From: a virus
Virus record (IMG/VR): IMGVR_UViG_3300036944_001286
Coordinates: 1 to 20,184 of that record
Reading direction: 5' to 3' (one strand)
DNA: 20,184 nt
How positions within the stretch are numbered: position 1 is the stretch's first letter; every line of letters begins with the position of its first letter. Positions 3,497-19,346 of this stretch are shown here, piece by piece. The notes beneath the pieces were generated by a model that was not told the DNA's origin, searched no databases, and saw only the letters and a program-made list of their open reading frames with translations. A program made the translations under genes and the position numbers.

Positions 3497-4090
3497 ATGA
3501 GAAAACTTAAAGAAACAACTAAAGAAAAAATGCGAGCAGTTCACCTATCTGGAAAGATAGATTATGTTGCTCGCGAGAGAAAACGTAAACAAACTCTGAA
3601 GAATAATGGTTCTGTTTCTGGTCGTCCAAAAGGAACTGGTAAGAAAAATGGCATTAATCTTCCTTGTCCAATTTGTGAGATAGGTGTTTATCATACGCAA
3701 GGTGAAATAAAACAAAAGAAAAGAAAACACTGCTCAATATCTTGTTTGATGCAAAATAAAGAATATAGAGAAAAATTACGAAAGGCTGATAAATCGTACA
3801 TGCAGTCTGAAAAATATAAAAACACTTTAAGAAAAGAAAATGTACCTGAATACAAAAGATTCCAAAGACAGGTTATACGAGAAACTGAAAAAACATATGC
3901 TAACTATATTGAATTGATAAATCCACAACGTCATCCAAGAACTCTTTGTGGTGTTTCTGGTGGTTGGCAGTTAGATCACATAAAATCTATTCGTTCATGC
4001 TTTGATGATGGTATGAGTATACAAGAAGCATCTAGAAAAGAAAACTTACAGATGCTTCCTTGGCTTGACAACTTGTTAAAGGGTAAATAA
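3497..4090 (+). CDS. Free-standing HNH homing endonuclease
   Basis: A 197-residue basic protein inserted between genes 47 and 46. The N-terminus is a Lys/Arg-rich DNA-binding stretch including GRPKGTGKKNG. A zinc-ribbon-like set follows (LPCPICEIG, then HCSISC, residues about 55-85). The C-terminus has an HNH core: WQLDHIKSI, a helix with SIQEASRKEN, and LQMLPWLDN. This is the layout of phage homing endonucleases that cut an empty allele and spread with flanking DNA. Rich in AAA and AGA codons and visibly more A/T-rich than genes 47 and 46, suggesting separate acquisition. Start 3497 is chosen because the late promoter lies exactly upstream; ATG 3530 is an alternative. The stop overlaps the gene 46 ATG (TAATG). 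Confidence 0.87.
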   Translation: MRKLKETTKEKMRAVHLSGKIDYVARERKRKQTLKNNGSVSGRPKGTGKKNGINLPCPICEIGVYHTQGEIKQKKRKHCSISCLMQNKEYREKLRKADKSYMQSEKYKNTLRKENVPEYKRFQRQVIRETEKTYANYIELINPQRHPRTLCGVSGGWQLDHIKSIRSCFDDGMSIQEASRKENLQMLPWLDNLLKGK

Positions 4091-6427: not shown

Positions 6428-7822
6428 TTGATTAAGACCGTCGACACTAGAAATAGAGTGAACGTTGTTGTCGCGAAAACAAAACTAGACTGCGAGCATT
6501 TGCTTGGTCAGTATCTAGATGAGTCACATTACGACACACTCATTACTGAAGACACCGATGGTTTCTTGCCACCTAACTGTGATATCGGCCTTCAAACTCA
6601 GTGTGGCGGAAGCTGCGAAGCTTGTCCATCCGGTAAAGATGAACGACGCGTTGCTTTCAAATTTCGCAAGAATTACTTCTCAAAGAAACTAAGGGTGCCA
6701 GCTTATGAAGGACTTAAAGAAGCAGCGACAGAGTCCCAGAATAGAGGATTGGCTGCAGGCCCTCGCGGCGCTAGTTTATCTGTTGATGGTCGTGGCGGGC
6801 GTGATTGGGTTACTGATTATGAACTTGAAGTTCTAGATTTCTTTCTGTCCGACAGAGCTGTCATCTTTGACGAACGCTCTGTCGATGCCATTAGAAAATC
6901 ATACAAAGATAAAGCTAAGTCCGATGAGACACGCGGCACAGTTTGGCTTCGTTCACAAGTAACCAAAGAGTACCCAGAGTACCACAATTGGTTTGACAAG
7001 TGGGTTGACAAGGTAAAGGAACTTCCTCGTGATGAACAAAAAGCCGCTGCCAAGATCGTCGCCGAAAAGTGGATTAGCTATACCAATTATGCTAAATCAG
7101 TTTATTCTGGAGTGGCAGGCTGGTACGATAGATATCCGCGCATCCCTTTCGGACGTGCAACATCGTATACGCGAGACAATCCGGAAAAATTCGCTCTCGC
7201 GTTTCCCTTCCTTCAGGCTCTCAACAAGGGATATCGTGAACTACTCCCTTGGAGGTATGGGAATCAAAGAGCCGCAGCCGATAAGCTTGACAGTAGATAC
7301 CTTGTCCCGGAAACTGTTTTTAGCACAATTACCGTCAACAAGTCCTTCCGTACTGCGGCCCACAGAGACGCGGGTGACTTTTCAGATGGTGTTTCCAATC
7401 TTCTCACACTCGGTGATGGTGAATACACAGGCGGGTACTTAATTTTCCCGGAGCTTCGTATTGCTGTTGATGTTCGACCCGGTGATCTTCTTCTGGTGAA
7501 CAACCACGAGATTATCCACGGTAACACCGAGATCAAACTGAACTTTCCAGAAGCTGAACGTATCTCAATCGTTTGTTATTTGCGTGAGAAAATGCTCGAG
7601 CTTGGAAGTTTTGAATACGAAAAAACTCGGGAGCAGTATGTTGAAGACCGAAGAAAAAACAAAGACCACCCATCACAACGTCCCTTGTGGAACGGCATTA
7701 CACCCGGAATGTGGGATGAACGTGAGTGGTATGACTATCTTGGGGATAGACTTGGGGAAGAAGCCGTCCGTCAGTACCATCCGGATGCATTCGCCTCATC
7801 ACTTGATTCGTTCTTCTCGTAA
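6428..7822 (+). CDS. TET/JBP-family 2-oxoglutarate/Fe(II) dioxygenase, probable DNA base hydroxylase
   Basis: Predicted to oxidise the methyl group of a DNA base (5-methylcytosine, or thymine as in JBP). The catalytic half matches the TET/JBP pattern: TVNKSFRTAAHRDAGDF with iron ligands His312 and Asp314, a GGYLIFPELRIAVDVRPGDLL core, distal ligand His364 in IIHGNT, and Arg378 (ERIS) for 2-oxoglutarate. Residues 1-80 contain a Cys cluster (C51, C59, C63, C66) that might bind metal. Residues about 395-464 form a charged extension ending in SSLDSFFS, identical to the tail of the downstream glycosyltransferase. The start is TTG 6428 with AAGGAGG five bases upstream; no ATG fits. Nearby glycosyltransferases support hydroxymethyl-base glycosylation. 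No methyltransferase or thymidylate-synthase-like gene is in the window, so the substrate base is open. Confidence 0.85.
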   Translation: MIKTVDTRNRVNVVVAKTKLDCEHLLGQYLDESHYDTLITEDTDGFLPPNCDIGLQTQCGGSCEACPSGKDERRVAFKFRKNYFSKKLRVPAYEGLKEAATESQNRGLAAGPRGASLSVDGRGGRDWVTDYELEVLDFFLSDRAVIFDERSVDAIRKSYKDKAKSDETRGTVWLRSQVTKEYPEYHNWFDKWVDKVKELPRDEQKAAAKIVAEKWISYTNYAKSVYSGVAGWYDRYPRIPFGRATSYTRDNPEKFALAFPFLQALNKGYRELLPWRYGNQRAAADKLDSRYLVPETVFSTITVNKSFRTAAHRDAGDFSDGVSNLLTLGDGEYTGGYLIFPELRIAVDVRPGDLLLVNNHEIIHGNTEIKLNFPEAERISIVCYLREKMLELGSFEYEKTREQYVEDRRKNKDHPSQRPLWNGITPGMWDEREWYDYLGDRLGEEAVRQYHPDAFASSLDSFFS

Positions 7823-7839
7823 TTAAAGGTTGCCTAAAT

Positions 7840-7971
7840 ATGTCTAATACGTTCCGCCGCTGGATTATCGTTTTGATCTTTGGAGCAGTGTTTCTTGCGG
7901 CTGCTGTTTTATCAGAAAAAGGCATCTACTATGAGGGATCTATCAGAGAAACAGCTTCTAAAGAGAATTAA
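7840..7971 (+). CDS. Small single-pass membrane protein, function unknown
   Basis: A 43-residue ORF starting MSNTFRRW. Residues 9-25 are a strongly hydrophobic segment (IIVLIFGAVFLAAAVL) after a basic N-terminus, the signature of a small inner-membrane protein or uncleaved signal anchor. AAAGG at 7825-7829 is an acceptable ribosome site. The ORF overlaps the next small gene in another frame. The assignment as a gene rests on the clean hydrophobic profile, tight fit between two real genes and the ribosome site; no family is recognised. Confidence 0.55.
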   Translation: MSNTFRRWIIVLIFGAVFLAAAVLSEKGIYYEGSIRETASKEN

Positions 7972-8110
7972 AGCTGCAACGAAATCCTTTGGGGCAAATT
8001 TTTATCGCCATGGAATTAAGGGTGAACCATATACTGGTAATTCAGAAGAAGAGAAAGATCTTCGACGTCGCCGCCAGGATTACGAAAAAACTAAACAACA
8101 ACGACCCTAA
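7931..8110 (+). CDS. Small charged hypothetical protein
   Basis: A 59-residue, strongly basic and charged ORF from ATG 7931 (MRDLSEKQLLKRIKAATKSF), with AAGG about eight bases upstream. A longer in-frame start at 7880 lies inside the membrane-protein gene and lacks a ribosome site. The C-terminus is a helical Arg/Lys/Glu run (EEEKDLRRRRQDYEKTKQQR). It lies 18 bases ahead of the GT-B glycosyltransferase and is probably co-transcribed with the modification genes. I do not recognise the family. Confidence 0.6.
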   Translation: MRDLSEKQLLKRIKAATKSFGANFYRHGIKGEPYTGNSEEEKDLRRRRQDYEKTKQQRP

Positions 8111-8128
8111 TAATATGAAAGATTGATT

Positions 8129-9475
8129 ATGAAGATTATGGTAGCTATGCACGTCTTCAACAACTTTGGAGGCATTCTGAATCATAATGAACAACTTATC
8201 GCAGGCCTTAAAGATCTTGGCCATGATGTCACATTCGCCTATCTTAAGACAACAACCAAACCAAATTATTCTGTCGACACTTCCAAGTGTCCAGATGGAT
8301 ACGAACTGGGTGAAGGAACTGGTTTGCCCCTCCACCAAGGAAACGGTTACGTATCACCATATTACTCCATCAAAGATAAAGACTCCATCGCCAAGTTTGT
8401 CAAAGAGGCAAACAAGCACGACATCCTTATCTGGCAGTCGATTTTTGGTTTTAAGCAAAGCGCGACAGAGAAGGACAAATCATGGCTTCCTATGATCGAA
8501 GATGTAACTGCAAAACAAATTGCTGTCATTCACGATGGGAACCTGAAGAAACTCTACAGTTGGATACACCGTGTGACGCCCCACCTGGCAGGCCTAGCCT
8601 GTGTCCATCCGGCTGCTATGAAGCAAGCGGATTTTATGCCTGTGCCTCGCAACATGATTCTCAACCCACAGGATGTCTCAGAGGTAGAACCTGTACGATT
8701 CACCCAGCGCAAAAACCAACTCCTAGCTCCACAGACGTTCAAACGTTGGAAACGCGTAGACGACCTGGTCTCGGCTGTGCCATATATCAATGGTTCCGTT
8801 CTCGTAGCAGGTGACGGGATGGAGCGAGCCTATATGGCTTCAGAAGAAAAGTGTAAACCAGAATACTACTGCACCAAAGAGCTTGATCCTGATGCTACAG
8901 AGGATCGCCTTGGTAAACGTATCTGGCAAAATGCACTTGACTCTGGAAAAATGGAATATCTCGGGTTCATCACAGGTGCCGATCGTGACAAAATACTAAA
9001 TACTAGTAAGTTCCTCCTTGATCCCAGCTGGTCGCTGACGTATGGAGAACACTTCAACCGTTCTATCGTTGATGCTATGCGCGTAGGATGCGTTCCTATT
9101 GCTCGTAACTACGGTATTAGTGATAACCCTATGGGTTGTGGAACCCTTTTCTTACCTGGGAAAAACTACTTCATGATCCCACATGATGTTACACCAAAAC
9201 AGTTTGGTGGGTTTGTTAACCAGTATTTCAATGTGTCTGAAGAAATGTATCTTGACATCGTTGATGCGAATAAAGAAGTCATCAAGAACTTCGATCGCAG
9301 GAAAATCGCACAACAGTTTATCAATCTTGCACTTGGCAAGAAAGGTAGTGGATATTACGACAAGGCTGAAACTGGCCGTCTCAATATCGACAACAACGTA
9401 GCCCAGAAAACGGGCGACAAAATTTGGGACGAACACTTTGAAGTCCCTTCTTCTCTTGATAGTTTCTTCTCATAA
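8129..9475 (+). CDS. GT-B fold glycosyltransferase (GT4-like), probable DNA-modifying
   Basis: A 449-residue enzyme. The N-terminus (KIMVAMHVFNNFGGILNHNE) has the first beta strand and glycine loop of the GT-B acceptor domain. Around residues 300-325, the stretch from LTYGEHFNRSIVDAMRVGC matches the GT4 sugar-nucleotide motif (E-x7-E/D-AM-x-G-C-x-P). ATG 8129 is chosen over TTG 8123. The last eight residues, SSLDSFFS, equal those of the dioxygenase, although the codons differ. Two genes separate it from a second, GT-A, glycosyltransferase. I infer that it adds a sugar to hydroxymethylated bases. A role on virion protein or lipopolysaccharide is possible, but the shared tail and neighbours favour DNA. 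The ribosome site is weak. Confidence 0.82.
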   Translation: MKIMVAMHVFNNFGGILNHNEQLIAGLKDLGHDVTFAYLKTTTKPNYSVDTSKCPDGYELGEGTGLPLHQGNGYVSPYYSIKDKDSIAKFVKEANKHDILIWQSIFGFKQSATEKDKSWLPMIEDVTAKQIAVIHDGNLKKLYSWIHRVTPHLAGLACVHPAAMKQADFMPVPRNMILNPQDVSEVEPVRFTQRKNQLLAPQTFKRWKRVDDLVSAVPYINGSVLVAGDGMERAYMASEEKCKPEYYCTKELDPDATEDRLGKRIWQNALDSGKMEYLGFITGADRDKILNTSKFLLDPSWSLTYGEHFNRSIVDAMRVGCVPIARNYGISDNPMGCGTLFLPGKNYFMIPHDVTPKQFGGFVNQYFNVSEEMYLDIVDANKEVIKNFDRRKIAQQFINLALGKKGSGYYDKAETGRLNIDNNVAQKTGDKIWDEHFEVPSSLDSFFS

Positions 9476-9933: not shown

Positions 9934-10839
9934 ATGGAAAACGAAAGCGTAGGACCGTCCCCAAGTCCAGCACCAAATGGGGGAATGCAAATCCAAATCC
10001 CTATTGAAAAATTGCGTGAGAGAAAACTCTTTATAGCAACCCCGATGTATGGTGGACAGTGTAGTGGTATGTTCGCCCGCTCGTGTGCTGACCTATCAGC
10101 ACTGTGCACAAAGTACGGCATTCAGCTACGCTACTACTTTCTATTCAACGAATCTCTGATCACTCGCGGGCGTAACTATTGCGCCGATGAGTTCCTCCGT
10201 AGCGGCGACACCAATATGATGTTCATCGACTCGGACATTGGATTCAATGCGAATGATGTGATTGCTCTTCTCGCCATGCAATCTGCTAATCCAGAAGATG
10301 ACGATTACGATATTCTCTGCGGGCCATATCCTAAGAAGTGTATCTCTTGGGAAAAGATCAAGATGGCCGTTGATAAAGGATTTGCCGATGAAGACCCAAA
10401 CGTTCTAGAACGCTTCGTCGGTGATTATGTTTTCAATCCTGTAAATGGAACGAGAACAATCCCACTAAACCAGCCAATTGAAATTCTAGAAGCTGGTACT
10501 GGGTTTATGATGATCCGTCGTAATACCTTCGAGAAATTTGCTGCTGCCTACCCTAAGCAATCATATAAACCTGACCACGTTAGAACTGCCCACTTTGATG
10601 GTTCGCGTGAGATCATTGCTTACTTCGATACGCCTATCGACCCAGAAACTAAACGCTACCTTTCAGAAGATTATATGTTCTGCCAATGGTCTCGCAAGAT
10701 CGGCCTGAAAGTGTGGTTCTGCCCATGGATGAAGCTCCAACATGTTGGGTCTTATATCTTCGGTGGCTCTCTTGCTGATCTTGCACAAATCGGAGCTTCA
10801 GCAACTGCTGACCAAGCTAAAATCAAGAAACCAAAGTGA
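9934..10839 (+). CDS. GT-A fold glycosyltransferase, probable DNA-modifying
   Basis: A 301-residue enzyme from ATG 9934 with AAGGA seven bases upstream; an upstream in-frame start at 9913 lies inside the -10 box and is rejected. After a Pro/Ser/Gly-rich leader (residues 7-17), the stretch from KLFIATPMYGG opens a GT-A nucleotide-binding fold. MFIDSDIGF gives the metal-binding D99-S-D101, EAGTGFMMIRR the acceptor-side loop, and SEDYMFCQWSRKIGLKVWF the late E-D motif. Similar single-domain glycosyltransferases occur in other T4-like phages. With the TET-like dioxygenase and GT-B gene it may make a two-sugar or alternative base modification. It lies 14 bases before gene 45. Confidence 0.8.
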   Translation: MENESVGPSPSPAPNGGMQIQIPIEKLRERKLFIATPMYGGQCSGMFARSCADLSALCTKYGIQLRYYFLFNESLITRGRNYCADEFLRSGDTNMMFIDSDIGFNANDVIALLAMQSANPEDDDYDILCGPYPKKCISWEKIKMAVDKGFADEDPNVLERFVGDYVFNPVNGTRTIPLNQPIEILEAGTGFMMIRRNTFEKFAAAYPKQSYKPDHVRTAHFDGSREIIAYFDTPIDPETKRYLSEDYMFCQWSRKIGLKVWFCPWMKLQHVGSYIFGGSLADLAQIGASATADQAKIKKPK

Positions 10840-10853
10840 TAGGATAACACATA

Positions 10854-11513
10854 ATGCAACTTTCTAATGAAACTACCGCCGTACTGAAAAACTTTGCCAG
10901 CATCAACCCTAACCTGCTGGTCAAACCCGGTACAAGCCTACGTACTATTTCACCAACCAAATCTGTTATGGCTCGCGCCACGGTTGAGGAAGAGTTCGAC
11001 AAAGGCTTCGCGATCTTTGATTTGAGCCAATTCCTTGGTCGTCTCTCTCTGTTTGATAAGCCAGAACTGACTATCAACGATGCCTTCATGGAGATCTCTG
11101 AAGGTGAAGAATATTCTGAGTTCGCATTCGCCGCTCAGGAAAACATCGTGGCTCCTCCTGAGAAAGAGATTACTCTTCCCAAGCCCGAGATCAAATTCGA
11201 GCTCACCGAGAAAGACTTCTCTAAAGTCATGAAGGCTATGAGCGTATCCGGTCTCCCAGAGATCGCGGTAACGGGCGACGATGGTAAGCTTTCGCTTCAA
11301 GCTATCGACTCCAAGGGCGTAAGCAAAGACGTATTCACAATCAATATCGGTAAGACTAAGCTCAAGTTCCGCATGATCTTCCGTGCTGATAACCTGAAGA
11401 TCATTCCTGGTGATTATGCAGTCGAGATCTCTTCCAAAGGTCTTGCGCACTTCAAAGCCGAACAGGTTGAGTACTGGATCGCCGTGGAACAGAATAGCAA
11501 GTTCGAAGGCTAA
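10854..11513 (+). CDS. 45: gp45-like sliding clamp
   Basis: DNA polymerase processivity clamp; in T4 a trimeric ring that also activates late transcription with gp33 and gp55. The 219 residues (T4: 228) begin MQLSNETTAVLKNFASINPNLLVKPG and show MARATVEEEFDKGFAIFDLSQFLGRLSLFDKPEL (residues about 40-74), closely resembling T4 gp45 domain 1, and a second PCNA-like half from about residue 115. AGGA at 10841-10844 lies upstream. Position directly before gene 44 is as in T4. Expected partners include gp55 and, by inference, the dioxygenase and GT-B tails. Confidence 0.93.
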   Translation: MQLSNETTAVLKNFASINPNLLVKPGTSLRTISPTKSVMARATVEEEFDKGFAIFDLSQFLGRLSLFDKPELTINDAFMEISEGEEYSEFAFAAQENIVAPPEKEITLPKPEIKFELTEKDFSKVMKAMSVSGLPEIAVTGDDGKLSLQAIDSKGVSKDVFTINIGKTKLKFRMIFRADNLKIIPGDYAVEISSKGLAHFKAEQVEYWIAVEQNSKFEG

Positions 11514-11721: not shown

Positions 11722-12660
11722 ATGATGATTCGCGAAGAGTTTCTCTGGGTAGAGAAGTATCGCCCAAAGACCATTGCTGATTGTATTCTGCCTGAAAAAC
11801 TAAAGTCTACCTTCCAAAAATTCGTTGACCAAAAAGAAGTACCAAACCTTCTGCTTACGGGTGGACCAGGTGTTGGTAAGACCACAGTTGCACGCGCCAT
11901 GCTCGAGCAGCTTGGTTGTGACTACATCGTTATCAACGGTTCTATGAACGGTGGTATCGATACTCTGAGAACTGACATCCAAAACTTCGCTTCATCTGTA
12001 TCACTTACAGGTGGGCGTAAGTACGTTATTCTAGATGAGGCGGATTACCTCTCATCTGCAACTCAGCCTGCTCTCCGTAACTTTATGGAGGAGTTCTCTA
12101 AGAACTGCGGCTTCATTCTCACTTGTAACTTCAAAGATAAGATTATTGCTCCTCTCCACTCACGATGCTCCGTCGTTGACTTCAAGATTACCAAGGCTGA
12201 GAAGGAAGATCTCGCGCGCCAGTTTCTGAAGCGTGCAATGCACATTCTTAAAACTGAAGGTGTCGAAGCTGAGAAACCAGCCGTCGCTGGCGTTATTATC
12301 AAGTTCTTTCCTGATTGGCGCAGAGTTCTCAACGAGCTCCAGCAATATGCCGCTACTGGTAAGATTGACTCTGGTATTCTAACCAATCTCCAAGACGTCA
12401 ACCTGACGAAACTCATGGAGTATCTGAAGTCTAAGAACTTCACCGCCATGCGTAAGTGGGTTGGTGAATCTGATCTTGATGGCGTGGCGGTGTTCCGCGT
12501 CATCTATGATAAAGCCGAACAGTATGTCACCAAGGAATCAATCCCTGGTCTTGTCATCCTGATTGGTAAGTATCAATACCAACACTCATTCGTTTCTAAT
12601 CCAGACATTAACATCGTTGCGTTCCTCACCGAATGCATGGTGGAATGCGAGTTCAAGTGA
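11722..12660 (+). CDS. 44: gp44-like clamp loader ATPase large subunit
   Basis: AAA+ ATPase that with gp62 opens and loads the gp45 clamp. The 312 residues (T4: 319) show EKYRPKTIADCILPE (box II), Walker A GGPGVGKT (47-54), Walker B YVILDEADYL (about 103-112), the NFMEEFSKNCGFILT sensor 1 region, and SRC (about 150; arginine finger). GGAG at about 11710-11713 precedes two consecutive ATGs (11722, 11725); the first has the better spacing. The long structured leader may control its translation; RegA represses gene 44 in T4. Confidence 0.95.
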   Translation: MMIREEFLWVEKYRPKTIADCILPEKLKSTFQKFVDQKEVPNLLLTGGPGVGKTTVARAMLEQLGCDYIVINGSMNGGIDTLRTDIQNFASSVSLTGGRKYVILDEADYLSSATQPALRNFMEEFSKNCGFILTCNFKDKIIAPLHSRCSVVDFKITKAEKEDLARQFLKRAMHILKTEGVEAEKPAVAGVIIKFFPDWRRVLNELQQYAATGKIDSGILTNLQDVNLTKLMEYLKSKNFTAMRKWVGESDLDGVAVFRVIYDKAEQYVTKESIPGLVILIGKYQYQHSFVSNPDINIVAFLTECMVECEFK

Positions 12661-12896
12661 GTTGGGTATCAAAGCTCTTTAACTTCTTCGGTTTGCATAT
12701 TGAAAAGATCCCAACAAGGGTTTGCTCTTTGTGTGATGCTCCGCTTCCAGAAGAACCAGCCAAGGTGGTCGTTAATGACGGCTCCGAGATTGAAATCTGC
12801 GAAATCTGTGAGAAGATTCTTGAGCTATCCAACAAAGCTGTAATAAAAGGTAGAACTCCGGAAAAGGACGAAGAAGATGGCGACGAACCCCTTTGA
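12657..12896 (+). CDS. Small zinc-ribbon hypothetical protein between clamp-loader genes
   Basis: About 79 residues from GTG 12657, which overlaps the gp44 stop (GTGA). ATGs at 12633 and 12645 are in-frame alternatives without better ribosome sites. CSLC and CEIC, separated by about 27 residues, form a likely zinc ribbon. The N-terminus WVSKLFNFFGLHIEKIP is amphipathic, and the tail is acidic (TPEKDEEDGDE). The gene overlaps the gp62 start by 20 bases. T4 has no gene between 44 and 62, so this is an insertion into the clamp-loader operon. Function unknown; a small protein that touches the clamp loader or RNA polymerase is a guess only. Confidence 0.65.
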   Translation: MSWVSKLFNFFGLHIEKIPTRVCSLCDAPLPEEPAKVVVNDGSEIEICEICEKILELSNKAVIKGRTPEKDEEDGDEPL

Positions 12897-13254
12897 TTTC
12901 GTAAACTCTGTAAACTTCACCAAGCGTCACCTTATCAATGAAGGCGAAGCTGATGAGAAGTCTTATCTCCCATTCATGGTGAACACCGCCCTGTCTTACT
13001 TCCCAGACACGGTTGAGTATGCCAACCAGATGAACATGAATTATCACCTGGATAACAAACTACAGTATGACTTTCTCATAAATATAGTTAGACCTAAGAA
13101 ACGGTTCAGTAAATGGACCAAGAAAGAGGTCAACGAGGATTTAGAGGCAGTTCAGACTTGGTTTGGGTATAATGTTACTCGTGCTAAGGAAGCGTTGCGG
13201 ATTCTATCACCCTCTCAACTAGAAGACATAAAGAAAGCACTAGGTGAAAGATGA
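12877..13254 (+). CDS. 62: gp62-like clamp loader small subunit
   Basis: Non-ATPase partner of gp44. At 125 residues it is shorter than T4 gp62 (187), but LPFMVNTALSYFPDTVEYANQMN (about 28-50) matches T4 [22 protein letters not shown], and RPKKRFSKWTKK matches PRGKRYGKWAK. The remaining helices (VQTWFGYNVTRAKEALRIL) fit the C-terminal part. The T4 N-terminal segment is reduced to about 25 residues. AAGGA at about 12862-12866 lies ten bases ahead. It overlaps both neighbours, the zinc-ribbon gene and regA (ATGA), as expected for a tightly coupled operon. Confidence 0.88.
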   Translation: MATNPFDFVNSVNFTKRHLINEGEADEKSYLPFMVNTALSYFPDTVEYANQMNMNYHLDNKLQYDFLINIVRPKKRFSKWTKKEVNEDLEAVQTWFGYNVTRAKEALRILSPSQLEDIKKALGER

Positions 13255-13646
13255 ATGTTGTTGATAGTCTACTAGAAGTCAATCTTAAAGAAAAAGATGA
13301 TTTTCTGAAGGTCATGGAGACCTTGACCCGCATTGGCATTGCCTCGCGGAACGAGAAAGTGCTTTACCAATCCTGTCATATTCTGCATAAGAAAGCCCGT
13401 TACTACATCGTCCATTTTAAAGAGTTGTTTAAGATAGATGGAAAACCGACGGATCTTTCCGAATCTGATATCCAGCGAAGAAACGCCATCGCGCTACTTC
13501 TTGAAAGCTGGGGACTATTAGAAATCGTCAATAAACAAATTGCAGAAAAGAATACTGTCTCGCCTAATACTATCAAAGTTATCCCATTTAAAGAGAAAAA
13601 CGAGTGGGCTCTGACTCCGAAATATAGTATTGGAAAGAAACGCTAA
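13251..13646 (+). CDS. regA: RegA translational repressor
   Basis: RNA-binding protein that represses translation of many early phage mRNAs by covering their start regions. The 131 residues (T4: 122) align nearly end to end: DDFLKVMETLTRIGIASRNEKVLYQSCHILHKKARYYIVHFKELF (residues about 16-60) is almost the T4 sequence, followed by SWGLLEIV and the C-terminal EWALTPKYSIGKK. AGGTGA precedes the ATG by five bases. In T4 gene 43 follows regA; here a minus-strand GIY-YIG gene follows tail to tail with a four-base overlap, so polymerase must lie elsewhere. Confidence 0.95.
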   Translation: MNVVDSLLEVNLKEKDDFLKVMETLTRIGIASRNEKVLYQSCHILHKKARYYIVHFKELFKIDGKPTDLSESDIQRRNAIALLLESWGLLEIVNKQIAEKNTVSPNTIKVIPFKEKNEWALTPKYSIGKKR

Positions 13647-14218
13647 AGATAGTTTTTCTTCAATAAATATGCAGTTGTTTTGTAGTATCTTGCCGCCTCT
13701 TTTATCGTTACGAAGGTTTTGTCCTTTATCGTTACTTGTTTAGCGGCCGGATTTTTCTCACCAATCAGTTTGCCTTTATTCTTTATACTTATCAGATTCT
13801 TAGATTCTTGAGACATTCCACCTTTACGAATATAATGAAGTCTACCTTTTTTCCACCCAATTGGAATTTCGGTTACTCTTTTTGTGGTTGTTCCGTTGTT
13901 TACCCAATATTTGTTTGTTGTAGCACCGAAACAACCATCACCACCTTCTGTCATGTTGTATCCATATCGTAGTGTATCGTAAAATTTAATAAAGTGTCTT
14001 TCTGCGAAATTCAAACAGTAATTTTTATCTTTGGATTGATATAAAATTTCCCATGTAAAAGCACCCCAACCGTATTTTCTTAACGCTGAATAAAAATTTG
14101 AATCAGCGTATTTGTGTTTACTTTTGTGTGTGCGTTTTCTCTTTGGCCAATTTGAATCAAATCCAATATAGGCTTTACCGTTAATTGTGTTAGTGGCTTT
14201 GTATATTGTACTTATCAT
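13643..14218 (-). CDS. GIY-YIG homing endonuclease
   Basis: A 191-residue protein on the opposite strand to every neighbour. The start IYKATNTINGKAYIGFD is the GIY-YIG motif; a basic RKRTHKSKHK follows with the catalytic Arg, then a helix with the catalytic Glu in AERHFIKFYDT, and YNMTEGGDG. The C-terminus (KQVTIKDKTFVTIKEAARYYKTT) looks like a NUMOD-type DNA-binding helix-turn-helix. A longer frame reaches 14320, but ATG 14218 is preferred because it opens directly on the conserved motif and lies five bases after a perfect late promoter. A/T- and AAA-rich compared with regA. Not interrupted by, nor within, an intron; it is a free-standing mobile gene at the regA boundary. Confidence 0.9.
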   Translation of the reverse strand: MISTIYKATNTINGKAYIGFDSNWPKRKRTHKSKHKYADSNFYSALRKYGWGAFTWEILYQSKDKNYCLNFAERHFIKFYDTLRYGYNMTEGGDGCFGATTNKYWVNNGTTTKRVTEIPIGWKKGRLHYIRKGGMSQESKNLISIKNKGKLIGEKNPAAKQVTIKDKTFVTIKEAARYYKTTAYLLKKNYL

Positions 14219-14223
14219 ACCAC

Positions 14224-14231
14224 TATTTATA
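14224..14231 (-). promoter_or_regulatory. Late promoter TATAAATA of the GIY-YIG gene
   Basis: Perfect late box read on the minus strand, five bases before ATG 14218. The same spacing and flanks occur at the HNH gene, sharing TATAAATAGnnGTATGA. The transcript is predicted to be leaderless. Confidence 0.8.
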
Positions 14232-14294
14232 CATTTGATAAAGTAGGTAAAAAACGTTAAGTTACAAGGGTCTAGGAAAAAACCCAGAAAAGGC

Positions 14295-14323
14295 TTGACA
14301 AAAAGACCGAAAAGGCGCATACT
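14295..14323 (+). promoter_or_regulatory. sigma70-type early promoter
   Basis: TTGACA (14295-14300), 17-base spacer, CATACT (14318-14323). The predicted start near 14330 leaves AGGAGA (14335-14340) in the leader of the gene at 14349. It likely drives the small-gene cluster and the first tRNA. Confidence 0.68.
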
Positions 14324-15126: not shown

Positions 15127-15203
15127 GACTCCGTAGCTCAACTGGATAGAGCAACGGCCTTCTAAGCCGTAGGTTGCTGGTTCGAGTCCAGCCGGGGTCG
15201 CCA
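15127..15203 (+). tRNA. tRNA-Arg (anticodon TCT)
   Basis: 77 bases with seven-pair acceptor (GACTCCG/CGGGGTC, one G-T), anticodon stem ACGGC/GCCGT around CTTCTAA, TTCGAGT T-loop and encoded CCA. It reads AGA/AGG, codons common in the A/T-rich homing endonuclease genes of this window. Confidence 0.96.
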
Positions 15204-15212
15204 TTTTCAAAA

Positions 15213-15220
15213 GATAAATA
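15213..15220 (+). promoter_or_regulatory. Probable late promoter GATAAATA
   Basis: Seven of eight match to TATAAATA, 32 bases before ATG 15253, with an AGGGA ribosome site between. It makes the downstream gene a late-gene candidate. Confidence 0.5.
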
Positions 15221-15252
15221 CTCTGTCAGTCGCTTTAACAGGGAATTAATGT

Positions 15253-15762
15253 ATGAAAACGCTTGCCGAAGTATTCTTGGAAACTCTCTCAGAAAGAGAT
15301 AAGCCTCTCGTCCGTATGGATTCAAAGGGAAAAACTGCGGTAGTGCTTGACCCAAAAACGATTTCTGGAAATCGTAGAGTTGAAGCGAATCGTCACGAAA
15401 TTGAAAGGGGTCATTTCCTGCGCAATGCAGAAAACACTCACGAGCGGGCTTTGTACATCAGTCATGTTAAAGAACTCCCAAGACACCCTGACCATGGTGG
15501 AAGACAAGTAGAAGTTACTGCACACCACACGAATAAAATATTTGCATCCGATAAGCCAATTGGCGGATATTCTTCTCGTAGACCAGACAATGCTTCAAAC
15601 GTCCCACCAAAACGTTTGGTGAAACCAAAGAAAATTGTTTTAGTTCAACATCCAAGAAATAATGGTCGTTGGATTGGTGGGGGTTATATGGCTGTTGTCC
15701 CAAAAGATACTCAAACACCAAGAGTCATTAAGACAAAGAGACCCGGTTACGGTGGTTTTTAA
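15253..15762 (+). CDS. Basic hypothetical protein, possibly late
   Basis: 169 residues, with CAGGGA about nine bases upstream of ATG 15253. Strongly basic and rich in His, Arg, Asn and Gly, especially the second half (PPKRLVKPKKIVLVQHPRNN, then GRWIGGGYMAVV and a KRPGYGG tail). Residues 1-15 (MKTLAEVFLETLSER) form an amphipathic helix of the kind seen at the start of many T4-like virion or assembly proteins. The candidate late promoter and flanking tRNA separate it from the early small genes. No family is recognised; virion or nucleic-acid-associated roles would fit the charge. Confidence 0.72.
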   Translation: MKTLAEVFLETLSERDKPLVRMDSKGKTAVVLDPKTISGNRRVEANRHEIERGHFLRNAENTHERALYISHVKELPRHPDHGGRQVEVTAHHTNKIFASDKPIGGYSSRRPDNASNVPPKRLVKPKKIVLVQHPRNNGRWIGGGYMAVVPKDTQTPRVIKTKRPGYGGF

Positions 15763-15778
15763 AAATTACAATTCCTGA

Positions 15779-15807
15779 TTGACATGTGACCCGTTCGCGG
15801 GTATATT
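15779..15807 (+). promoter_or_regulatory. sigma70-type promoter with an inverted repeat in the spacer
   Basis: TTGACA (15779-15784), 17-base spacer, TATATT (15802-15807). The spacer holds the inverted repeat ACCCG-TTCG-CGGGT (15789-15802), a possible operator. The predicted start near 15814 falls after the AGGTGA (15808-15813) that serves ATG 15817. Confidence 0.68.
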
Positions 15808-15816
15808 AGGTGAATA

Positions 15817-16362
15817 ATGAAGCAAATTATTGGAAAGACGCTCCCCGAACTGGTCATAATGGTCGGTCCTTCCGGAGCAGGTAAATCGAAGATCGCCGCA
15901 AGGACAGGATACCCAATTGTTTCAACGGATATGATCCGCTTGAACCTGTTTGGTTTCGGCCCTGATGGAAAGATCGCTGCTGAGGCTTATACGCCAGATG
16001 GTTTTCATGACACCTTTGCTGCGGCGAAGTTTATCGTTGAAGGATATCTTCGTGGTGGTCAGAGCGTTGTGTATGATGCGACAAACCTGACACGTATTGA
16101 TCGAGTCAGCTTTCTTCGTTGGCTTGAATTTGGTGGTGGGTACGCCAGCAACACTCAAGCTCGTGTAGTTTACTACATCGTTGATCGTTCTCTTGAAGAA
16201 AAACTGAAATCGTATAACGCCAATATCAAGGCCGGTATTCCAGTTCCGCATACCACCGATGAGATTATCATTCGCCACCACACTAAGATGATCAATAATG
16301 TGGAAGGTGCTCTGCTTGGTGACAACCTTGGTTATGTCGAAGTCAGGGATTTTCGGTCATGA
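15817..16362 (+). CDS. Polynucleotide 5'-kinase-like protein (kinase domain only)
   Basis: P-loop kinase resembling the N-terminal domain of T4 Pnk. In 181 residues: Walker A GPSGAGKS (17-24), STDMIRLN (substrate Asp), VVYDATNLTRIDRVSFL (about 87-103; T4 SDTNLNPERR) and a C-terminal helical lid. T4 Pnk is 301 residues with a second, DxDxT-type phosphatase domain that removes 2',3'-cyclic phosphate; no such domain is present here or in the next ORF. With the RNA ligase downstream it would form a tRNA repair pair, re-phosphorylating 5' ends cut by host anticodon nucleases. AGGTGA sits three bases before ATG. Other P-loop kinases cannot be excluded. Confidence 0.8.
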   Translation: MKQIIGKTLPELVIMVGPSGAGKSKIAARTGYPIVSTDMIRLNLFGFGPDGKIAAEAYTPDGFHDTFAAAKFIVEGYLRGGQSVVYDATNLTRIDRVSFLRWLEFGGGYASNTQARVVYYIVDRSLEEKLKSYNANIKAGIPVPHTTDEIIIRHHTKMINNVEGALLGDNLGYVEVRDFRS

Positions 16363-16556
16363 GAGACTTTTTTGGTAATGAACTTGTTGTTGGTGATGAG
16401 GTCGCTTTCTGTGAACCCGGTTATCGCAATTTAGTTGTTGGTAAAATTCAACACTTCACACCTGAGAAGGTACGGGTTCAATATCTCAGTATTGAGAAAG
16501 AAAAAACCACTTATCTTGGGCAACCGAATTTCTTCATCAAGAAAGTTTCTTTGTAA
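16359..16556 (+). CDS. Small conserved phage protein, beta-rich
   Basis: 65 residues, ATG overlapping the kinase stop (ATGA). The pattern NELVVGDEVAFCEPGYRNL, then VVGKIQHFTPEKVRVQYLS, is typical of small SH3/KOW-like beta barrels found as hypothetical proteins in T4-like phages. No catalytic residues are evident, and it does not supply the phosphatase missing from the kinase. Co-transcription with the kinase is likely. Confidence 0.7.
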   Translation: MRDFFGNELVVGDEVAFCEPGYRNLVVGKIQHFTPEKVRVQYLSIEKEKTTYLGQPNFFIKKVSL

Positions 16557-16916
16557 CTAAATAACTCGACACTGAGTAAAGGTATTTACCTTCGGTTATT
16601 CTAGAAAGTCAAGTAGAATTCTTGATACTCAGTTGTCTTAGGAGCGCCAAAACAGCACCGTGGTTGGTGTAACAAATCGCTCGCCCGTTTAACCAAACGG
16701 GAACTACGCGAAACAGCTAGAAGGAGCGGAAGCTCTGATAAACTGAATCGCGGCGCTGGTAGTCCGCTTTTTGCGGCGGCAATCCGGAACAGGCCACCAG
16801 CGTATTATAATTGACAGCCGGACCACTCGGGTGATTGTGGTCGCGAAAGCCAGCGCAGAAGGCTTGACTTTGGTGGGGTGAGAGAGAAACGCCCACACAG
16901 TTTTAAGGAAGAGAAT
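16557..16916 (+). ncRNA. Gene-free structured region, candidate non-coding RNA(s)
   Basis: 360 bases without a credible ORF but full of inverted repeats. Module 1: GACACTGAGTA (16568-16578) pairs with TACTCAGTTGTC (16626-16637, one bulge), enclosing AAGGTATTTACCTT and the hairpin TCAAG/CTTGA (16609-16625). Module 2: AGCGCC (near 16643) can pair with GGCGCT (near 16752), enclosing CACC/GGTG, the perfect CCCGTTT-AACC-AAACGGG and GAGC-GGAA-GCTC. Module 3: CCGC-TTTTT-GCGG and GACCAC/GTGGTC, with CGCTGGT able to pair with ACCAGCG (16796-16802) instead. T4 has stable RNAs C and D of unknown function in its tRNA cluster, a positional precedent. RNA boundaries are unknown. Confidence 0.55.
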
Positions 16917-17279
16917 ATGAGTCAGCTTGATGGTTACCAAATTGATGCCGGTGCCTGGTTACAAAAGGTTTTCCCTCAGGAAATTGCTTTTGACAACATA
17001 GAGCGGTGTAGCCGATTTATCGAAGAAGCACTTGAGCTTGTTCAAGCTCTCGGGTATGACAGAGAAAAAGCTCATGTCCTAGTCGATTATGTCTTCGATC
17101 GCCCGGTTGGTGAGAAGCGCCAAGAGCTCGGTGGTGTTATGGTGACGCTTGCTATTCTTTCTTATGTGCATTCTATGCATATGTGGGATGAAGGCAAGTT
17201 TGAGTTGAATCGTATTAGTAAACCAGAGATCATTGAAAAGATCAAAGAGAAACAAAAGTCGAAACCAAAGTTTGAATAG
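16917..17279 (+). CDS. MazG-like nucleotide pyrophosphohydrolase
   Basis: 120 residues from ATG 16917, with AAGGA at 16905-16909; an in-frame ATG at 16878 lacks a ribosome site. RFIEEALELVQALG (about 32-45) is the E-E-x-x-E metal-binding helix of MazG-like proteins, and EKRQELGGVMVTLAIL (about 68-83) the second helix, with Glu and Gly-Gly where many members have E-x-x-D. A Lys-rich tail follows. Family members hydrolyse (d)NTPs or the alarmone pool; phage versions are thought to tune host nucleotide signalling. It is the second nucleotide-hydrolase-type gene in the window. Confidence 0.75.
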   Translation: MSQLDGYQIDAGAWLQKVFPQEIAFDNIERCSRFIEEALELVQALGYDREKAHVLVDYVFDRPVGEKRQELGGVMVTLAILSYVHSMHMWDEGKFELNRISKPEIIEKIKEKQKSKPKFE

Positions 17280-17288
17280 GAAAAGAAA

Positions 17289-17477
17289 ATGAAATTTGCA
17301 ACACTAATCACAGCATCAGCACTTTTGCTTGCTTCTTGCAATAGCAGCGACGTAGAACCAAGGCCAAATGATCAAGATGGTGTTGAGCGCATTTGCACCA
17401 CAGAAGATCTCGGTCAAGGTCCAGTTGAAATTTGCATATGCAAAACCGCTACTGAAGCTACCGATTGTCCTGCTTAA
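17289..17477 (+). CDS. Small predicted lipoprotein
   Basis: 62 residues. MKFATLITASALLLASC is a classic lipoprotein signal with lipobox LASC; cleavage before Cys17 would leave a 46-residue lipid-anchored, acidic peptide with four more Cys (ICTTED, ICICK, DC), probably disulphide-linked in the periplasm. GGAAAAG lies about seven bases ahead. Some phages use small lipoproteins to block their own receptor (T5 Llp is an example), so superinfection exclusion is a reasonable but untested guess. It is next to tRNA-Asp in an early-type region. Confidence 0.75.
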   Translation: MKFATLITASALLLASCNSSDVEPRPNDQDGVERICTTEDLGQGPVEICICKTATEATDCPA

Positions 17478-17484
17478 AGTTTAA

Positions 17485-17560
17485 GGCTCCTTAGTTCAGC
17501 GGTTAGAGCGCTGCGTTGTCTGCGCGGATGTCGTCGGTTCGAATCCGACAGGAGTCGCCA
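17485..17560 (+). tRNA. tRNA-Asp (anticodon GTC)
   Basis: 76 bases: acceptor GGCTCCT/AGGAGTC, anticodon stem CTGCG/CGCGG around TTGTCTG, T-arm GTCGG-TTCGAAT-CCGAC, discriminator G and encoded CCA. Confidence 0.96.
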
Positions 17561-17576
17561 TTATTATGAGGATGTG

Positions 17577-18686
17577 ATGTTTCCAATAATCAAACATATA
17601 GATGATGTTCTTCCGCACATCGCGGATAAACCTGAGATCGCTCGTATTGAGAAAGACAATTACACCGTCCTCGACTACATCTACGCTGGTGAGAACACTT
17701 TTGATAATCCGTTCGCCCGCGAATGCCGTGGTCTTAAGTTTGACTTAGACGGAAAACTAATCGGTCGGCCATTCCACAAATTCTTCAATCTTAATGAGAA
17801 AGAAGAAACGAAGTTCGAGAACCAAGATTGGCTTGAACCATTTACCTTGTACAACAAGTGGGATGGTTCTATGATCCACCCGGCTCTTGTTCGTGGTGAG
17901 CTTGTGTTCATGACTCGTAAGGGTGTAACTGATGTTGCAATGCAAGCGATGCGCGAATGCGACTATGATGCGGATGAAATGATCGCGATGCTCAAGTCGG
18001 GGTTTACTCCGATCTATGAGTTTATCTCACCGAACAACAAGATCGTTCTTCACTACGATGAACCGAGACTTGTTCCGCTTAATATTCGTGACAGACAAAC
18101 TGGTGAATACTTCACTAATTTCGCTGAGACGCATAGTCCTCTTGGTGATCATCTAAAAGGAAACTCTATCGAAGAGATTCTTGATTCGATTAGGAAAGCC
18201 AAAGATCTTGAAGGAACTGTAATTCAGTTTCACAAAAGCAAACGTTTCATCAAGTTCAAAGCCGATGACTACGTTGCTCTGCATCGCGTCATTGATGAGA
18301 CCGCCCATGAAAAGCGGGTTCTTGCCTTGATCATGGATGATAAGCTTGATGATGTAATTCCTCTTGTTGCTCCGGCACGTGCGGAACATCTGAAAGATTA
18401 TGCAAAACAGGTCAACTGGATTCTTCTCTGCAGAGCAAAGTACATAAGTAACTACGTTTTCTACAGGCAAGATTACACCCAAAAAGATTTTGCTCTTGAT
18501 GTGAAATGTTTGAAACAAGATCTACATCGTTTCTTGTTTAAGGCAAGATCTCTTGATCTTTGTGATGTTCCTACGATTATCGCAATGCTCAAGGATTACT
18601 TCAAGAAAACTCTCACAACTCAAACTAAAGTTGATGAGTGGAGAGAGTTTATTGGTGCTCCTAAGTTTGAGATGAAGATTGACTAA
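17577..18686 (+). CDS. rnlA: RNA ligase 1 (T4 RnlA type)
   Basis: ATP-dependent RNA ligase that seals broken tRNA anticodon loops in T4. The 369 residues (T4: 374) include RECRGLKFDLDG (48-59), HKFFNLNE (67-74), nucleotidyl motif I KWDGS with Lys94 as the likely AMP acceptor, IYEFISPNNKIVL (motif IIIa region, about 141-155), LEGTVIQF (motif IV), and IKFKADDYVALH (motif V with two Lys). The C-terminal half fits the Rnl1 tRNA-binding domain. ATG 17577 follows AGGA by four bases; GTG 17574 is an alternative. It lies between tRNA-Asp and tRNA-Pro and about 1.2 kb after the kinase gene, supporting a role in tRNA repair. Confidence 0.93.
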   Translation: MFPIIKHIDDVLPHIADKPEIARIEKDNYTVLDYIYAGENTFDNPFARECRGLKFDLDGKLIGRPFHKFFNLNEKEETKFENQDWLEPFTLYNKWDGSMIHPALVRGELVFMTRKGVTDVAMQAMRECDYDADEMIAMLKSGFTPIYEFISPNNKIVLHYDEPRLVPLNIRDRQTGEYFTNFAETHSPLGDHLKGNSIEEILDSIRKAKDLEGTVIQFHKSKRFIKFKADDYVALHRVIDETAHEKRVLALIMDDKLDDVIPLVAPARAEHLKDYAKQVNWILLCRAKYISNYVFYRQDYTQKDFALDVKCLKQDLHRFLFKARSLDLCDVPTIIAMLKDYFKKTLTTQTKVDEWREFIGAPKFEMKID

Positions 18687-18701
18687 ATAGATTACAATTA
18701 C

Positions 18702-18778
18702 CCGTATGTAGCTCAGCCTGGTAGAGCTCCTGGTTTGGGGCCAGGAGGTCGTTGGTTCGATTCCAGCCATACGGACCA
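18702..18778 (+). tRNA. tRNA-Pro (anticodon TGG)
   Basis: 77 bases: acceptor CCGTATG/CATACGG, anticodon stem CCTGG/CCAGG around TTTGGGG, T-arm GTTGG-TTCGATT-CCAGC, encoded CCA. Confidence 0.96.
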
Positions 18779-18976
18779 TTAACGGTTCTCCTTAGGAATC
18801 ATGGGAGACGCAAGTGTCACAAGACCCGCCAGTGGCAGCCAAATTATAATTCAAATTCTGTGAGTCAAGTCCTCGAGGATGACGACAATCAGAAGGTAGG
18901 TCGCCAAGACTAATGGGTACGAAAGTCTCATGAGCTTTTGTGAAAGAAGAAATTGTCGTCCTTCGCCTACCACCAT
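18779..18976 (+). ncRNA. Candidate structured RNA between tRNA-Pro and tRNA-Leu
   Basis: 218 bases with no ORF separate two tRNAs. The core (18870-18975) has GACGACAAT (18881-18889) perfectly complementary to ATTGTCGTC (18952-18960), extended by GAGG (18875-18878) with CTTC (18961-18964, one G-T). Inside are hairpins AGACT/AGTCT (18907-18928) and CTTT-TGTG-AAAG (18935-18946). GGTAGG (18895-18900) inside the loop matches CCTACC (18966-18971) outside it, giving a pseudoknot or switch, and ACCA follows directly, as in a tRNA 3' end. No canonical T- or anticodon arm exists. The upstream half has weaker hairpins (TCTCC/GGAGA, 18787 to about 18808). Confidence 0.55.
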
Positions 18977-18978
18977 TA

Positions 18979-18986
18979 TATAAATA
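18979..18986 (+). promoter_or_regulatory. Late promoter TATAAATA ahead of tRNA-Leu
   Basis: Perfect late box ten bases before the mature 5' end of tRNA-Leu. With the terminator at 19354 it would define a short late unit: tRNA-Leu, small basic ORF, tRNA-Met. Confidence 0.7.
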
Positions 18987-18996
18987 AATCCAGAAC

Positions 18997-19079
18997 GCCC
19001 ATATGACGGAATTGGTAGACGTGCCAGATTTAGGTTCTGGTGTTTCGGCGTGGGAGTTCGAGTCTCTCTATGGGTACCA
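18997..19079 (+). tRNA. tRNA-Leu (anticodon TAG)
   Basis: 83 bases, class II with extra arm: acceptor GCCCATA/TATGGGT, anticodon stem CCAGA/TCTGG around TTTAGGT, variable arm near TGTTTCGGCG, TTCGAGT T-loop, encoded CCA. Confidence 0.95.
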
Positions 19080-19085
19080 AATAAT

Positions 19086-19265
19086 ATGAAAAAGAAAGAA
19101 ACCTTTTCCAGTAAGTTTGTAAAAGTTGCTGCACCAATATTTTTGAAATCCATCGGAAATTCTGAGGGTGCTGCAGCTAAGAAAGCTGGTAAGAAAAAAG
19201 AAGAAAATCCATATGTGAGTGGTAGTGATATCCACAATCATTGGAATGACGGATACGATAGATAA
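19086..19265 (+). CDS. Small basic hypothetical protein
   Basis: 59 residues from ATG 19086, seven bases after tRNA-Leu; the same frame extends back into the tRNA but that part is not credible. Lys-rich start (MKKKETFSSKFVKVAAPIF), a KKAGKKKEE patch, and a distinct C-terminus (YVSGSDIHNHWNDGYDR). There is no clear Shine-Dalgarno. It fills the gap between two tRNAs and ends five bases before tRNA-Met. Moderately confident that it is a real gene. Confidence 0.5.
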   Translation: MKKKETFSSKFVKVAAPIFLKSIGNSEGAAAKKAGKKKEENPYVSGSDIHNHWNDGYDR

Positions 19266-19269
19266 TTAT

Positions 19270-19346
19270 TGCGGGGTAGAGCAGCGGTCAGCTCGCCAGT
19301 TTCATAAGCTAGGAGGTCGGTGGTTCGAATCCACCCTCCGCAACCA
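19270..19346 (+). tRNA. tRNA-Met (anticodon CAT), initiator-like body
   Basis: 77 bases: acceptor TGCGGGG/CTCCGCA, D-stem GAGC/GCTC (A11-T24, as in initiators), anticodon stem CCAGT/GCTAG with a C-A mismatch at 28-42 around TTCATAA, T-arm GGTGG/CCACC, encoded CCA. The three G-C pairs needed by bacterial initiators are absent. A tRNA-Ile with lysidine-modified CAT cannot be excluded. Confidence 0.9.

Follow-up and report, generated by a model that had tools for sequence, protein, structure and literature searches.

The window analyzed here, the whole 20,184-nucleotide stretch of IMG/VR virus record IMGVR_UViG_3300036944_001286, contains a T4-type replication island encoding UvsW, gp55, gp47, gp46, gp45, gp44, gp62 and RegA, and the genes of two predicted DNA-modifying enzymes sit within it. 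The features relevant to these enzymes are listed here.

1809-2405: gp55 late sigma factor, ending PHPDEEKKESA
6428..7822, plus strand: TET/JBP-family 2OG-Fe(II) dioxygenase, predicted DNA-pyrimidine hydroxylase (PF12851, phrog_24024, AlphaFold model)
7796..7819, plus strand: dioxygenase C-terminal tail SSLDSFFS, codons TCATCACTTGATTCGTTCTTCTCG; predicted gp45-binding motif
8129..9475, plus strand: GT-B (GT4-like) glycosyltransferase, predicted DNA sugar transferase (sub-threshold PF00534; Foldseek)
9449..9472, plus strand: glycosyltransferase C-terminal tail SSLDSFFS, codons TCTTCTCTTGATAGTTTCTTCTCA; predicted gp45-binding motif
10854..11513, plus strand: gp45 sliding clamp, predicted partner of both tails (PF09116, E 8e-15; phrog_223, E 1e-69)
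11722..12660, plus strand: gp44 clamp-loader large subunit (phrog_168, E 3e-119)
12877..13254, plus strand: gp62 clamp-loader small subunit (PF16790, E 4e-13)

Both enzyme identities proposed in the first-pass annotation are borne out. The dioxygenase matches Tet_JBP (PF12851; E 8e-25, over the cut-off) and phrog_24024 (E 7e-155), and its AlphaFold model has a TET-like fold that matches CcTet and NgTET1; on homology, its start may be the GTG at 6458. The glycosyltransferase has only sub-threshold Pfam matches (PF00534 and PF13692), and its GT-B fold is evident from Foldseek matches to PimA, BshA and T4 alpha-glucosyltransferase (E 1e-12 to 1e-8). It does not match PF11440, the T4 alpha-glucosyltransferase family, with which it has the GT-B fold alone in common. 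Because the TET-like and GT-B folds differ, we rejected the idea that the two enzymes are homologous. When the region was compared with phage records by megablast, only tRNAs matched, and tblastn with the glycosyltransferase gave nothing in these records; ten relatives of this enzyme were found in IMG/VR.

The first-pass annotation placed the clamp gene after the island, and gp45 indeed lies downstream of the glycosyltransferase. Its product matches the RB69 and T4 gp45 structures 1b77, 1b8h and 1czd (E 1e-22 to 1e-21). Besides the window, 25 of 28 related contigs carry gp45. Between a dGTP/dATP hydrolase gene and the clamp gene is a phrog_1574 protein (9952-10839) that appears glycosyltransferase-like by eye, does not carry the tail, and has a seeming counterpart in DLP6 (locus AAY80_034). 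Likely homing-endonuclease ORFs occur between gp47 and gp46 (3497-4090; HNH-like by eye) and after RegA (13643-14320, minus strand; weak SegE GIY-YIG match). Five tRNA genes (Arg, Asp, Pro, Leu and Met) are found at 15127-19346, amid small ORFs and a T4 RnlA-like RNA ligase.

SSLDSFFS forms the last eight residues of both enzymes and is followed directly by TAA in each, as the first-pass annotation had reported. Based on C-terminal composition, an identical octamer would arise by chance with a probability of ~1.6e-10 per pair, or 3e-8 over the 190 pairs among ~20 genes, and pure chance was rejected on these figures. The two tail-coding stretches share 18 of 24 bases and have 4 of 8 codons in common; over the 120 bases that precede them, ungapped identity is only 28%. 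With half of the codons different and unrelated DNA upstream, a recent DNA duplication is unlikely and was rejected, in agreement with the original argument from codon usage. In the window, a degenerate pattern for the tail plus stop codon hits the two enzyme tails and nothing else, and the reversed control has no hit.

Relatives of both enzymes carry similar tails. In an alignment of 34 dioxygenase sequences, the tail Leu is invariant and lies 20-30 residues past the last conserved Trp. Nearly all of eighty further dioxygenase loci (55-96% identity) end in [S/T/N]L[D/E]xFF, and tails among the glycosyltransferase relatives are STLEDFFT, GLDDFFG, SLEDLFG and DLDEFFA. The consensus core is L-[D/E]-x-F-F, located at the C terminus or a few residues short of it, after a flexible linker. 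We observe 43 DNA versions among 49 distinct tails, with all six Leu codons in use, which argues for selection on the peptide. In AlphaFold models, pLDDT is ~55 at the last residues of the dioxygenase, where residues 459-463 form an isolated helix, and below 50 at residues 435-440 and 442-448 of the glycosyltransferase. A low-confidence tail with a short isolated helix is as expected for a tethered linear motif. A fixed structural C terminus was rejected, given the low pLDDT and the variable length of the linker.

PIP boxes have the core [ILM]xx[FY][FY], whose spacing equals that of L-x-x-F-F. The likeness to PCNA-type LxxFF boxes noted at first is therefore genuine in the spacing of the core, but it does not extend to the complete box, Qxx[ILM]xx[FY][FY]: Ala/Pro-Ser-Ser precedes the Leu in the window tails, and we rejected a canonical PIP box because the Gln three residues ahead of Leu is absent. 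The window tail also differs from a PIP box in being strictly C-terminal and in its predicted partner, gp45.

The proposed resemblance to T4 clamp-binding tails holds for the ends of T4 gp43 (KASLDFLFG), gp55 (SPSLDFLYEAND, with SLDFLYEAND) and gp33 (NTLDFLL). These T4 tails bind gp45 in experiments and stay functional when exchanged for one another (PMC2988020); clamp-binding T4 tails were also shown experimentally in PMC9690074, where the LDFL motif is named. Like this motif, also called SCBM, the window tails are hydrophobic-acidic, lie at the extreme C terminus after a flexible linker, have an L-D/E-x-F/L-F/Y core, and occur with a phage-encoded gp45. The difference lies in the carriers, which are a dioxygenase and a glycosyltransferase here and other DNA-modifying families in relatives, rather than a polymerase and transcription factors.

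The first-pass annotation suggested examining gp43 of the same phage for the motif. This gene lies outside the 20-kb fragment and was not found on the contigs of the two closest relatives, and the comparison was made with other relatives. On contigs with the same dioxygenase, all 12 complete gp43 genes end in the motif. Polymerase ends in relatives with both enzyme genes include TLEDFFS, SSLEDFFS and TLEDFFA, and those of isolates include ATLDSFFA (DLP6), ATLEDFFG (C48C1), TLEDFFG (Melnitz) and, as a variant, DLSSLFD (Cr30). Three contigs with a 61%-identical glycosyltransferase have a gp43 ending in IATLEDFFS; in this lineage the glycosyltransferase ends in STLEDFFT and the dioxygenase in TSLEAFFA. 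The polymerase and dioxygenase cores agree in Leu at position 1 (15 of 16 gp43 and 88 of 90 dioxygenases), Glu or Asp at position 2 (16/16 and 76/90), the first Phe (15/16 and 81/90) and the second Phe (15/16 and 64/90). Likeness within a genome is seen in G014, where gp43 and TAGT both end in TLEDFFG, and in Cr30, where the TAGT ends in DLSKLF. The reading of SSLDSFFS as a clamp tether is thus supported by the gp43 tails of relatives and by the known T4 tails, and binding is predicted.

Unrelated folds carry the tail as well, including TAGT (PF20691), ADDT (PF18724) and a D12 adenine methyltransferase of C48C1 whose gene adjoins gp43. Most ADDT tails are a variant, GLExF[F/Y/M/T]. GNAT acetyltransferases probably carry it too: near dioxygenase genes, we detected one with a clear match to this family that ends in SSLENFLC (L046, 12699-13469) and one with a weak match that ends in SSLESFLS (L054, 7762-8403), and their location suggests acylated modified bases. 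Genes of a family of 259-261 amino acids (L101, 11317-12096; L102, 1548-2333) occur after the dioxygenase and have the tails STLDNFF and RSLDEFF. This family has no Pfam or PHROG match, and its position and tail make it a candidate for a new DNA-modifying enzyme. The tail is absent from T4 alpha-glucosyltransferase (which ends in FKEQFDIITK), T4 beta-glucosyltransferase and T4 Dam, and from the TAGT of the T4-sized Acinetobacter phage AB1I1M-1.

To relate the tail to the clamp, we sorted dioxygenase-bearing contigs into those with T4-type markers, both replicative and structural, and those with podo-/siphophage markers. Among 133 loci with T4 markers, 98 have the strict tail and 29 a loose form; in the first scan, none of 16 loci without T4 markers has it. 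A second count, in which the P12024L lineage was added and obvious variants were admitted, gave 134 of 135 T4-marker loci and 0 of 28 podo-/siphophage-type loci, the pattern having been loosened after the variants were seen (the strict figure is 98/133). A scan seeded by a tail-less siphophage enzyme recovered only two T4-marker matches, 36-41% identical, both of which end in TLEDFF; one of the two contigs additionally encodes gp45 and a polymerase with the end SIDDFF. On the L347 contig, PolB (L354, 469-3065; G035) is divided into two ORFs of 530 and 323 amino acids, the second of which ends in NSIDDFF, possibly reflecting a split polymerase, an inserted element or an assembly error.

On a tree of 53 dioxygenase representatives, clamp status changes twice and tail status three times. 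The correlation on this tree alone thus amounts to one or two independent contrasts and is not strong statistics; independence comes from the unrelated enzyme families. As an exception, Cr30 has the clamp and a dioxygenase that ends in TGATLF, without the tail. In S-CBWM1, gp45 and PolB were not detected and the dioxygenase is tail-less; its TAGT ends in HELEDLLP despite the lack of a detected clamp. Neither the dioxygenase nor the TAGT of the clamp-less P12024L has the tail.

Taken together, the tails are very probably gp45-binding motifs that hold the modifying enzymes on the clamp behind the replication fork. SSLDSFFS would tether the dioxygenase and the glycosyltransferase to trimeric gp45 where the polymerase tail docks. 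The two enzymes would then hydroxylate bases of freshly synthesized duplex and attach a sugar to them, either near the fork or while clamps stay on the DNA, so that the tail would act as a portable gp45 tag linking in-DNA hypermodification to replication. Physical binding, coupling to replication and thymine as the base hydroxylated in the window lineage are what we infer.

Other roles for the tail are much less probable. The tails might bind gp45 chiefly in its transcription-activating role, or might just regulate enzyme turnover. The motif on gp55 and gp33 does serve T4 late transcription (PMC2988020, PMC7892883). However, the tailed enzymes are DNA modifiers, gp43 has the tail, and the C terminus of the window gp55 lacks the T4 clamp-binding tail, which makes this role improbable. 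The SLDFL form is likewise absent from gp55 of DLP6, Cr30 and C48C1, and bivalent clamp tethering of late transcription in this clade may therefore differ from that in T4.

Enzymes that presumably act in sequence in one pathway carry the tail, which could instead be a docking peptide by which they bind each other, building a modification complex without the clamp. This proposal is highly improbable, since gp43, gp33 and gp55 bear the tail too, G012 and G013 have the strict form on gp43 and one enzyme alone, and the related pathway enzymes of clamp-less P12024L do not have it. We consider it least probable of all that the tail is an ordinary structural C terminus or a chance hydrophobic end with no partner. 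A strict-pattern scan of six related large contigs and C48C1 matched 23 of 1197 long ORFs, and shuffled ends give 4.3 matches on average, with a maximum of 12 in 500 shuffles. The 23 matches comprise 18 gp43 or modification enzymes, three baseplate hub proteins and two that seem spurious. Low model confidence, variable linker length and the lack of the tail in homologues of clamp-less type also speak against a merely structural end. The gp26-like hub proteins (PF12322/phrog_150; L173, 5723-6433; L206, 13946-14656; L222, 5099-5806) have the ends GIDSFF, SLDDFFTLG and GIDDFF, and T4 gp26 ends in RGLKEFFELL. Either these ends only look like the motif or the hub proteins make a clamp contact not suspected before; a short FF tail alone is thus no proof of clamp binding.

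The genes found in related phages bear on which base is modified. Of 24 related records, only Melnitz has a C5-cytosine methyltransferase, and ADDT is present in 13 of 26. On this basis, the dioxygenase of the window lineage more likely converts thymine in DNA to 5-hydroxymethyluracil, and the next addition would be a sugar here and an amino acid in ADDT phages. In the Melnitz lineage, where the C5 methyltransferase gene adjoins, oxidation of methylcytosine is more likely.

The annotation also pointed to a report that T4 alpha-glucosyltransferase contacts gp45. This contact is real: according to PMC13216743, which cites Sommer 2004, alpha-glucosyltransferase pulls down gp45 and beta-glucosyltransferase does not. 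As in the arrangement proposed for the window, a DNA glycosyltransferase with a GT-B fold uses the same clamp, and the contact is thought to couple modification with replication. The T4 enzyme lacks the LDxFF tail, however, so it must bind gp45 by another surface and serves as a functional precedent only. T4 makes hydroxymethylcytosine before replication, unlike the in-DNA modification proposed here.

A TET/JBP dioxygenase is likewise paired with a glycosyltransferase acting on DNA bases in the JBP1/2 and base-J glucosyltransferase system and in phage TET and glycosyltransferase pathways. In the open literature searched, clamp-binding tails are not described for any of these, and we found no report of a tail linking phage TET/JBP, TAGT or ADDT enzymes to the clamp. 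The motif and the clamp-toolbelt principle are already known; their systematic use on these three enzyme classes was not found in that literature.

On balance we favor a broader model, in which many T4-type phages use gp45 as an all-purpose toolbelt for hypermodifying DNA after replication. Unrelated enzymes for oxidation, glycosylation, amino-acid transfer, acetylation and adenine methylation would each have gained the polymerase's tag, and bases would be modified in place by enzymes on the clamp, right behind the fork; as for base J, the base in question would probably be thymine in the window lineage. The isolated, two-decade-old observation on T4 alpha-glucosyltransferase and gp45 would thereby be broadened into a recurring signature that is visible in the sequence. 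In clamp-bearing phages, the tail could help to flag proteins of unknown function as likely DNA modifiers, such as the 259-amino-acid family described above, and to tell in-DNA modifiers from nucleotide-pool enzymes. If the model is true, phages that oxidize bases in DNA modify their whole genome fast because the modifying enzymes ride the replication clamp.
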